In this document: in pieces, positions 25,622 through 27,629 of the stretch | Numbering within the stretch: position 1 is the stretch's first letter | How the letters are laid out: every line of letters begins with the position of its first letter | Assembly (NCBI GenBank): GCA_024405015.1 | Contig: JAKSPE010000007.1 | Coordinates: forward strand, 1 to 64,000 | Direction: 5' to 3' | From: Sphaerochaetaceae bacterium | GTDB lineage: Bacteria; Spirochaetota; Spirochaetia; Sphaerochaetales; Sphaerochaetaceae | Length of the DNA: 64,000 bases | The notes under the pieces: generated by a model | What the model saw: the letters and a program-made list of their open reading frames with translations, nothing else | The model's database searches: none | Told to the model about the DNA's origin: nothing | Position numbers and translations under genes: made by a program

Positions 25622-25715
25622 GGTAGGGTGTAGCCATGTCAGGGAGAAATGAAGTAGAATAGATATCCTAGAACCGAAAGGGTATTGTATGGTTCTGAAA
25701 TGGAAGGGGAGAAAC

Positions 25716-26654
25716 ATGAAAAACATCATTCTTAGTGCATTGACCATCATCGTTGTCATCGTTGGATGTGTCCTTGGTCTTTCACAGGGAATCGTCCTTG
25801 ATGAGCTTCAGCTGGAGACCATGAAGGTTCTGCTGATCATGGTGTCATGTAGCGCCTCCTATTGTTTTCTTGTTGGTGAGATCTCGCGCAACAATTCCCA
25901 GATGGATAAGCTTTGGAGTCTCCTGCCGATTGCCTATGCCTGGGTCATCGCAGCAAAGGGTGGCATGAAGGTCCGTCTTGTGGTTATGGCTCTGATCATT
26001 ACCCTTTGGGGCGGAAGACTTACCTACAATTTCGCCAAGAAGGGTGCCTACACCATTAGATTCTGGGAAGGCGAGGAGGACTACCGCTGGCCGATTCTCA
26101 GAAAGCACAAGCTTCTGAAGAACAAGCTTGTCTGGGCCCTGTTTGACCTGATCTTCATCAGCATCTACCAGAACGCCCTTGTTCTTGCCATCTGCTTTCC
26201 GATGGTTGCCGTCATGTCCTCAGCCAAGGCTTTCTCCTTAATGGATTGCATTGCAGCTCTTCTCATGATTGGTGCTGTCGTGTACGAGACCATCGCCGAC
26301 AAGCAGCAGATGGCTTTTCAGACAGAGAAGTGGAGAATGATCGGCGAGGGTAAGAAGCTGGAAGAACTTCCACAGCCTTATTGCAAGGGCTTTAACACAA
26401 CTGGCCTTTGGGCAAGAAGCCGCCATCCGAACTATTTTGCCGAGCAGTCCACATGGGTCTTTTTGTACCTGTTCTGCATCGGAGCGGGTGTGACACACCA
26501 TGGCGTTTTCCACTGGTCCATCTTCGGCTGCCTCATGCTGATTCTTCTGTTCATGGGAAGCTCCATGTTCGGCGAGTACATCTCATCCAAGAAGTATCCG
26601 CTGTATGCGCAGTACCAGAAGACCACTCCAAAGTATTTCCCGAAGATGTTCTGA
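25716..26654 (+). CDS. DUF1295 / isoprenylcysteine methyltransferase-like membrane enzyme
   Basis: This is a 312-residue integral membrane protein with about seven to nine helices. The C-terminal part holds the family signature: F-N-T-T-G-L-W-A-R-S-R-H-P-N-Y-F-A-E-Q and the late E-Y-I-S-S-K-K-Y-P-x-Y-A-x-Y-Q-K-T-T. These are typical of DUF1295 proteins, related to steroid 5-alpha-reductases and ICMT-type methyltransferases. The true reaction in bacteria is not established. Start chosen at 25716 because GGAAGGGGA lies just upstream; an earlier in-frame ATG (25689) lacks a ribosome site. Confidence 0.85.
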   Translation: MKNIILSALTIIVVIVGCVLGLSQGIVLDELQLETMKVLLIMVSCSASYCFLVGEISRNNSQMDKLWSLLPIAYAWVIAAKGGMKVRLVVMALIITLWGGRLTYNFAKKGAYTIRFWEGEEDYRWPILRKHKLLKNKLVWALFDLIFISIYQNALVLAICFPMVAVMSSAKAFSLMDCIAALLMIGAVVYETIADKQQMAFQTEKWRMIGEGKKLEELPQPYCKGFNTTGLWARSRHPNYFAEQSTWVFLYLFCIGAGVTHHGVFHWSIFGCLMLILLFMGSSMFGEYISSKKYPLYAQYQKTTPKYFPKMF

Positions 26655-26720
26655 GACCTTAGGTCTTCAAATAAAAGGATGGGACTGTTGCGTATACTGA
26701 CGTAATGGTCCCTTCTTTGT
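26655..26720 (+). terminator. Probable terminator region of the DUF1295 gene
   Basis: GGGAC (26681-26685) pairs with GTCCC (26708-26712), followed by a T-rich tail. The loop contains TATACT and the ATG of the next small frame, so this hairpin may be shared with a promoter. Confidence 0.45.
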
Positions 26721-26911
26721 TTTACAAGAGTATTCAAGTATACGTGGTAAACTTAGATGGACAGAAAATGGTTCTTCAAGTTTACAAAGTCATCTTGGAT
26801 GATCGAAAATTGGCATTCCAAGATTACAAAGTCATCTTGATGGATCAGAAATGGCTCTTTCAAGATGACGCTGTACCTGATGTCAATCGCTGGTACCGCT
26901 GTATCCGATAG
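26705..26911 (+). CDS. Small repeat peptide, possibly coding
   Basis: The frame encodes 68 residues. The middle consists of three 14-residue units with the pattern V-[IN]-L-x-[DG]-[QR]-K-x-x-x-Q-x-[YD]-[KA], starting at DNA positions 26747, 26789 and 26831. A TATACT box ends 6 nt before the ATG, which would make it leaderless, but the -35 region is poor and the box lies in a hairpin loop. The same 42-bp units form DNA/RNA hairpins, so the region may be selected as structure rather than as protein. I recognise no family. Confidence 0.35.
   Translation: MVPSLFYKSIQVYVVNLDGQKMVLQVYKVILDDRKLAFQDYKVILMDQKWLFQDDAVPDVNRWYRCIR
26747..26869. repeat. Three tandem 42-bp hairpin repeats
   Basis: Each unit is a hairpin. 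Unit 1: GTAAACTT (26747-26754) with AAGTTTAC (26778-26785). Unit 2: GTCATCTTGGA (26789-26799) with TCCAAGATTAC (26817-26827), one mismatch. Unit 3: GTCATCTTGA (26831-26840) with TCAAGATGAC (26860-26869), perfect. Stem bases differ between units but pairing is kept (position 3: A-T versus C-G; position 5: A-T versus T-A). Confidence 0.8.
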
Positions 26912-26930
26912 GCAATGCTGTCATATAGAC

Positions 26931-26967
26931 AAAGAAAAGGCGCATCGCAAACTCTGCAACGCGCCTT
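26931..26967 (-). terminator. Terminator of rex
   Basis: AAGGCGC (26937-26943) pairs with GCGCCTT (26961-26967). On the minus strand a T-rich tail follows. Confidence 0.7.
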
Positions 26968-26987
26968 CTTGTGTATGTAAGCCGTAC

Positions 26988-27629
26988 TTATGCTGTTGGC
27001 TGCTCTTTCGGGAACTTGATCTCGTAGAAGATCTGCTCCAGCTCAAGTCCGATGTTGATGTTGTGGACAACCGGCATGGAGCCGTCCTTGGTCGGCATAG
27101 CTTTGAGTGTGACAGGTGAGAAGTTCAGAATGCCCTTGATGTTGCAGTCCAGAAGGTGCTGGTAGGTGTCCTGTGCAGCAGACTCCGGAACGGTGATGAT
27201 GGCGACATGCACATCGAGGTCCTTGCAGACCTCACCGATCTTGGATGGTGTGTAGACTGGAACGCCGATGCTCTTGTCGACCAGCTGTGGGTTGTTGTCA
27301 AAACCTGCGACGATCTTGATGCCGTCGTTCTCAAAGCCGGTGTAGTGCATCAGTGCCATACCGATTCTACCGCAACCGATGACGATGACGCTTTCTGGAG
27401 CTCCCTTGCCGAGGATCTTTCCCAGTGAGTTTGCAAGCTCGACGATGTCATAGCCACCGCGCTTCTGACCATAGATGCCAAGTTGTGAGAAATCCTTTCT
27501 GACGATGGCAGCTGATACTCCGGCTGCATCTGCCAGGTTGTGGGCAAAAACCTTCTCAAGACCGATGGTGCGGAGCTTTGTGAGGGCTCTGTAGTAGCGG
27601 GTGATTCGAATCAGCATTTCATTGTTCAT
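26988..27629 (-). CDS. rex: Redox-sensing transcriptional repressor Rex
   Basis: Rex represses fermentation and NADH-consuming genes and releases DNA when NADH/NAD+ rises. The protein has 213 residues, the normal length. The N-terminal winged helix (about 1-80) contains I-T-R-Y-Y-R-A-L and I-V-R-K-D-F-S-Q-L-G-I-Y-G. A Rossmann fold follows with V-I-G-C-G-R-I-G-M-A-L, and the end holds the domain-swapping helix. A GGGAG ribosome site precedes the ATG. It is monocistronic. I found no clean Rex operator in front of it. Confidence 0.95.
   Translation of the reverse strand: MNNEMLIRITRYYRALTKLRTIGLEKVFAHNLADAAGVSAAIVRKDFSQLGIYGQKRGGYDIVELANSLGKILGKGAPESVIVIGCGRIGMALMHYTGFENDGIKIVAGFDNNPQLVDKSIGVPVYTPSKIGEVCKDLDVHVAIITVPESAAQDTYQHLLDCNIKGILNFSPVTLKAMPTKDGSMPVVHNINIGLELEQIFYEIKFPKEQPTA

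Follow-up and report, generated by a model that had tools for sequence, protein, structure and literature searches.

Modular arrays of tandem hairpins in a Sphaerochaetaceae genome: probable non-coding interspersed repeats with relatives across the genus

Results

A hairpin array lies between two convergent genes

The window analysed here is a stretch of 64,000 nucleotides from a Sphaerochaetaceae bacterium (contig JAKSPE010000007.1). A compact array of hairpins occupies the gap between a gene encoding a DUF1295 protein and a convergent gene with CoA_binding and Put_DNA-bind_N domains, which we take to be rex. The parts of this region are as follows.

25622-26987, no strand: interval from MATE to rex, made up of the DUF1295 gene and the whole array; missing in two congeners with an orthologous rex
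25689-26654, + strand: DUF1295 gene (PF06966 match)
26681-26722, + strand: hairpin of 13 pairs (26681-26712) followed by a T-rich tail, resembling an intrinsic terminator, at the DUF1295 gene's 3' end (terminator scan, fold)
26705-26911, + strand: 68-aa open frame across the array, ATG at 26705; judged a by-product and no gene
26720-26746, + strand: left module TTTTACAAG.GTATTCAAGTATAC.TG, complementary in part to the right module; it precedes other complete copies and aligns with the C11 copy
26747-26785, + strand: hairpin unit 1, GTAAACTT..AAGTTTAC
26789-26827, + strand: hairpin unit 2, GTCATCTTGGA..TCCAAGATTAC, of middle type (5' arm like that of last units, 3' arm like that of first units)
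26831-26869, + strand: hairpin unit 3, GTCATCTTGA..TCAAGATGAC, of last type
26870-26911, + strand: right module GCTGTACCTGATGTCAATCGCTGG.., a separate dispersed repeat
26935-26969, - strand: terminator-like hairpin of the rex gene, the array's other boundary (terminator scan)
26988-27629, - strand: rex-type gene, convergent with the DUF1295 gene (CoA_binding and Put_DNA-bind_N matches)

The original prediction, made from the letters alone, had placed three units at 26747, 26789 and 26831 with a step of 42 bp, and we find exactly this arrangement: 39-nt hairpins joined by 3-nt AAA spacers, which Tandem Repeats Finder (TRF) also reports as a 42-bp tandem repeat (score 128). Folded as RNA, the array segment reaches -87.8 kcal/mol versus -59.7 kcal/mol for shuffled sequence (z -6.15), and none of 200 shuffles folds equally low. 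The further claim that bases differing between units change on both sides of the stem is true in part. In its favour, unit 1 has A-T at pair 3/37 where unit 3 has C-G, and at pair 5/35 T-A is reversed to A-T in unit 1. Against it, C/T is left unpaired at 3/37 of unit 2, and A/C at 9/31 of unit 1. A suspected fourth, degenerate unit at 26693-26742 resolves into the loop and 3' arm of the terminator-like hairpin plus the left arm TTCAAGTATAC, some form of which is present in complete element copies. The flanks of the element are complementary in part, TTCAAGTATAC with GTACTTGA (by eye). Because two terminator-like hairpins enclose the array, it lies outside both predicted transcripts.

The array belongs to a dispersed, modular family

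The genome of the window is a draft of 2.03 Mb in 48 contigs, 84.9% complete. Within it, blastn returns 30 matches to the array, and a reading of these together with a fuzzy unit search gives 31 units at 12 loci, with one to four units per locus; a truncated element copy at C7:9132 comes in addition. Genome-wide, the pattern ATCTTG-N17-33-CAAGAT has 29 forward matches (25 in the hairpin-unit family, 4 outside it) versus 0 for the reversed control pattern. Copies are built from modules, some of which may be missing: on the left a terminator hairpin with the left module, then the hairpin units, and at the end either of two right modules. The units stand head-to-tail at every locus that has at least two. 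Between the window copy and the C11 copy there is an 83% match that extends for 210 bp, starting at the end of the terminator, crossing three units and reaching the right module; it takes in both flanks, and whole elements have therefore been copied. A larger dispersed module of about 150-180 bp (GATTGTGTCAGATGCTGTGTGATGCCTGTTCAGACC..., with a related form) was also seen near arrays and transposase genes (L012, L013, L018, L019, L044, L045, L051).

Neither 40 relatives, nor 84,980 species genomes (genome_contigs), nor the viral contigs scanned contain the exact unit; a full copy compared by blastn with 139 family genomes, the window's included, finds nothing outside better than E 0.01; and a plasmid search gave no match.

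Arrays lie between genes and mostly run in the direction of the upstream gene, according to a gene-context table in which the automatic choice of open reading frame (ORF) is doubtful in some rows and arrays are overlapped by three ORFs, either small or in the Vsr frame. A terminator-like hairpin precedes the element in 9 of 13 copies, the truncated one counted (by eye). Exact terminators of the type to the left of the array number eight in the genome, four of them without an array. Near-identical terminator hairpins, GGGACTGTTGC..GCAATGGTCCC, were noted without arrays at G000:C7:29649, C38:5595, C44:60465 and C44:80948.

This placement, the shared direction and the strong RNA fold are what one might expect of an RNA element of 3' untranslated regions, acting in transcript stability or anti-termination. 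Such a role is improbable in our view because the elements lie beyond the predicted terminator, in the window between two of them, and because related copies at the pspF-pspA site, described below, lie between divergent genes. Rfam covariance models likewise give no match at the array at gathering level; at E<=1 there are three sub-threshold hits, none on an element.

Pairing is the common feature, and unit types point to growth by duplication

We measured pairing along an 11-pair stem in 29 of the 31 units, omitting two of unequal length. Stem cells are paired in 90.0% of cases versus 24.9-50.2% with slid partners. Three stem pairs show changes on both sides, a count reached in 67 of 500 shuffles, and the covariation score for the 29 units is matched by 8 of 500. 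Position 3/37 is unpaired in 14 of the 29. Pairing is thus supported in the unit family, with modest covariation, and it is the feature that the units have in common.

Where a unit stands in its array is reflected in its arms. In multi-unit copies with a left module, six of seven complete first units have A-T at pair 3/37; all six last units adjoining a right module have C-G there; and middle units mostly combine a 5' arm of last type with a 3' arm of first type, leaving 3/37 unpaired (all by eye). A three-unit array in the congener G009, built from other stems, follows the same rule, closing with AC/GT in its first unit, TT/GT in its middle unit and TT/AA in its last (by eye). If 42 bp are duplicated and the breakpoints fall in the loops, exactly this order of unit types results. 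Because middle units join a last-type 5' arm to a first-type 3' arm, we infer that arrays lengthen by 42-bp duplication.

The open frame through the array is judged a by-product

Whether selection acts on RNA, DNA or protein had been left open; of the three, protein can be set aside, and the shared feature is pairing. The frame from the ATG at 26705 does stay open to 26911, as had been observed, and encodes 68 aa. Of the family's 12 arrays, 8 can be read through in frame 0, giving VIL..QK..FQDY, and 4 are interrupted by stops. Among the 12 there is no common start or downstream protein, the 68-aa frame has no Pfam match, and congeners with the same architecture have a 41-bp period, which breaks the reading frame. 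The array's place between the predicted terminators of two convergent genes also speaks against a protein. A unit length divisible by three, together with a stem that is stop-free in that frame, accounts for the 14-residue peptide repeat. We reject a peptide gene on the stops, the lack of a common start and the 41-bp periods. A translated repeat peptide, akin to the coding repeats known as PARCELs or to Rickettsia palindromic elements, could draw on the eight open arrays and on one whose frame continues into a Vsr gene. The match to the Vsr domain (residues 65-134), however, begins well past that array, and with the evidence above this reading is scarcely credible. The array concerned, at L003:1015-1665, has four units and sits in a divergent gap directly 5' of the Vsr mismatch endonuclease gene.

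Presence and absence at orthologous sites

Between pspF and pspA, assigned by Sigma54_activat and PspA_IM30, 11 loci in the genus were readable; six are occupied, with five stem types, and five are empty (G000, G005, G006, G008 and the second G001 locus). The arrays of G009 and G010 are orthologous and have three units each; in these, the first hairpin of G010 has uncompensated 3'-arm changes relative to G009 (by eye). Twin hairpins with other stems are found in G007, G004, G002 and one of the two G001 loci. The empty sites, both at psp and at rex, cannot be aligned base by base to occupied ones; the occupied psp loci may represent separate insertions or a single element with fast stem turnover.

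The psp elements lie between divergent genes, upstream of pspA. A TTGGCACG-N5-TGCT-like sequence, presumably a sigma-54-type promoter, is kept upstream of pspA in most psp loci (L321-L332), and the region further upstream turns over. Sigma-54 activator sites were dropped as a general explanation, as the element is missing from 5 of 11 psp loci. Another proposal is that a nucleoid protein or regulator binds the units as palindromic sites, set four helical turns apart. The 41-42 bp period is indeed close to four turns of DNA, the arms follow the order arm, counter-arm, arm, counter-arm, and the psp copies lie upstream of the putative promoter; but stems differ from locus to locus, which a protein that reads sequence would not tolerate, and the empty psp loci count against it as well. 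We regard such binding sites as improbable, to about the same degree as an untranslated-region RNA.

An orthologous rex match is present in 3 of 11 genus genomes, the window's included; in the two congeners it has 79-80% identity. In both of these a convergent MATE gene lies directly beside rex, and there is no DUF1295 gene and no array. The window has the order MATE (its C-terminus read by eye from the DNA), DUF1295, array, rex, so the genomes differ here by about 1.37 kb, gene and array together, for which an insertion in the window's genome is the simplest account. The best named relatives of the DUF1295 protein are mostly from Bacteroidales and Bacilli (57-62% identity), which suggests that the gene was transferred; three congeners have a relative at 54-56%.

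Twin hairpins with unrelated stems occur across the genus

A sequence-blind scan for two hairpins with similar arms at a set distance finds 12 tandem pairs at 41-43 bp in 812 kb of the window's genome, a count that takes in the window and the C1 copy already known. In G009, 195 kb hold 5 pairs at 38-44 bp (one inside TTGCAAA-type repeats), and in G004, 307 kb hold 3 at 41-42 bp; the stems are mostly different. At 38-46 bp, the same scan finds none in 400 kb from two other genera, none in 635 kb from Bacteroidales and Bacilli, and none in shuffled sequence. Hairpin density is similar everywhere, at 24.7 per 100 kb in the window's genome versus 21.9-27.2 in controls. Looser settings, under which one multi-unit array may score repeatedly, give 26 in the window's genome, 2 in 461 kb of other genera and 0 in Bacteroidales and Bacilli. 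A four-arm scan gives 10 in the window's genome (shuffled 1), 3 in G009, and 4 each in G004 and G006, about half of these last convincing by eye; the other genera yield 1 weak hit in 400 kb, and the control 4 that are weak and AT-rich (shuffled 1). Altogether, 8 of 11 genus genomes have twin-hairpin members (G000, G001, G002, G004, G006, G007, G009, G010), G005 has one weak candidate, and none were seen in the few kb read from G003 and G008.

One further group follows the pattern TAC-nnnn-24-nnnn-GTA-AAA-TAC-nnnn-24-nnnn-GTA. Exact matches number six in the window's genome, with none for the reversed control and none in 138 other family genomes. Allowing two mismatches gives 10 matches versus 8 for the reversed control, and of the four extra ones two were kept solely on their four-arm palindromes and two discarded. 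The resulting eight copies were compared gaplessly by script, as MAFFT put elements with different stems out of register. The stems covary strongly: at the four variable positions, arms 1:2, 3:4, 1:4 and 2:3 pair in 30, 24, 25 and 30 of 32 cells, compared with permuted means of 10.6-11.4 (10.9 for arms 1:2); 12-72 of 40,320 permutations score as high, a figure that amounts to less than a probability as the copies are related. The C13 and C34 copies have the loop ACTGCAGAAAATATTTT in common and differ in their stems, and one arm of the C24 copy matches another copy's type, which indicates that stems turn over in concert. In the best fold, several TAC copies form one nested hairpin in place of two, and the hairpins of the window family stand side by side. 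Immediately 5' of one TAC element lies a 79-bp tandem duplication with GC-rich hairpins (L230:12439-12585).

The strongest rival to a mobile element arises here, namely that mutation alone is responsible: template switching during replication would repeatedly make short quasi-palindromes perfect and slippage would duplicate them, so that stems remain complementary with neither selection nor mobility. Homogenisation of arms would be expected to change all four TAC arms in concert, as they do; broken stems occur, for example in the G010 psp hairpin; and template switching is reported in excerpts of PMC8794818 to create and repair stems. What this process does not predict is a 41-42 bp period across unrelated stems, enrichment in one genus at like hairpin density, or whole modular copies at unlinked sites, and we consider it unlikely.

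A Y1 transposase gene is flanked by the right module

The window's genome encodes three full-length Y1_Tnp proteins. One of their genes, at G000:C4:30205-31352 (L044, L049), is flanked by inverted copies of the right module, ACGCTGTACTTGATGTCAATCGC, in a manner comparable to REP-RAYT loci, and no hairpin units were seen flanking any of the three. This links a Y1 enzyme to the tail of the element and not to its hairpins. Broken relics of IS200-like transposases were also seen at G000:C12:66667 and C12:68024 (L052), among repeated paralogous genes resembling those for secreted proteins.

Discussion

The element in the window is dispersed and modular in make-up, its units are paired, and it is present or absent between congeners. 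We think it probable, at roughly 60%, that the array is a non-coding, intergenic, structured interspersed repeat that has been copied to new sites and has grown in 42-bp steps, and the best reading of its distribution is that the element is mobile or has recently spread. Its ground form would be two adjacent hairpins of 38-39 nt with a joint of about 3 nt, which accounts for the period of 41-42 bp, and the window copy would be flanked by a left module associated with a terminator and by a right module of REP-like type. Such an element, hairpin-forming and non-autonomous, may spread in trans. A Y1 transposase of the IS200/REP type is the best candidate mover because the right module flanks one such gene. 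Since stems change and complementarity is retained, shape and spacing may be what persists.

A bolder extension, which we offer only tentatively, is that these elements form a genus-wide bacterial class of twin hairpins defined by shape and a period of four helical turns and not by sequence. Concerted turnover of the four arms would then leave most loci with a stem of their own, intergenic sites such as pspF-pspA would be occupied by different stems in different species, recognition would be of folded DNA, and the class would be the counterpart of the mitochondrial double-hairpin elements.

The original prediction that no described family has this pattern remains good for the sequence, which has no Rfam or genome-collection match. 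It does not hold for the kind of element, as BOX elements, REPs and BIMEs, mitochondrial double-hairpin elements and PARCELs are all relatives. The open-access literature searched yielded no description of twin hairpins that stand head-to-tail, repeat every 41-42 bp and vary in their stems. A CRISPR-like reading, as a 21-bp palindrome with a 21-bp spacer, was set aside as the "spacers" are homologous between units, and an integron attC reading as no R'/R'' core was seen (both by eye).

In architecture, the closest known system is BOX of pneumococci. According to excerpts of PMC3049150, BOX elements are intergenic boxA-boxBn-boxC structures with a variable number of B modules that fold largely alone, are nearly limited to one species group, and are sometimes crossed by open frames. 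The window family has a comparable left module, one to four units, right module and truncated variants, a likeness of architecture. Unlike BOX, its equivalent of boxB is an entire hairpin, and other loci keep the same spacing with unrelated stems.

The genomic setting is closest to that of REPs and BIMEs, which are described in the excerpted text of PMC3733652 as 20-40 bp palindromes in mosaic clusters, species-specific and downstream of genes, with a GTAG or CGTC tag and dimers arranged head-to-head or tail-to-tail. The right module flanking a Y1-transposase gene is a point of resemblance. In contrast to REPs, the window units have no GTAG or CGTC tag, mostly begin GTMATC or ATMATC and end GATKAC, stand head-to-tail and are low in copy number; members of the TAC family open with TAC and close with GTA or GTG.

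In form, the closest analogues would seem to be the mitochondrial double-hairpin elements, defined as two adjacent hairpins, dispersed intergenically, with variable stem sequence. Paquin and colleagues reportedly described them in 2000 as dispersed between genes within groups of close relatives, their presence varying among close species. The bacterial elements are likewise adjacent, intergenic and variable in their stems, but they lie on a bacterial chromosome, have a period of 41-42 bp, build the arms of both hairpins from one sequence, and reach three to four units. The mitochondrial elements, also called repetitive hairpin-forming elements, are cited in portions of PMC2800124 and PMC5910586, and bacterial double hairpins are noted in an excerpt of PMC2267715 for a few repeat families (EFA-1, Pae-1).

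PARCELs, like the window array, are tandem and palindromic with a frame-compatible unit length. They are recognised by a DUF285-type motif in expressed ORFs. Excerpts of PMC2996958 describe tandem palindromic coding repeats of frame-keeping length with a 25-residue motif in real ORFs, unlike the window array with its 14 residues, loss of frame in other copies and no Pfam match. Small mobile repeats that are read in frame are known (PMC2759123, in excerpt).

Our findings bear on how repeat families are delimited and on what their structure implies. The usual way to define interspersed palindromes is by a conserved sequence; in this one genus, many elements have a geometry in common, two hairpins 41-42 bp apart, and not a stem sequence. 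Covarying stems and an in-frame repeat period are, alone, no evidence for a functional RNA or peptide. This genus thus offers a setting in which it can be tested whether repeats are recognised and copied by their shape, or whether strict, concerted structures may arise from template switching during replication alone.
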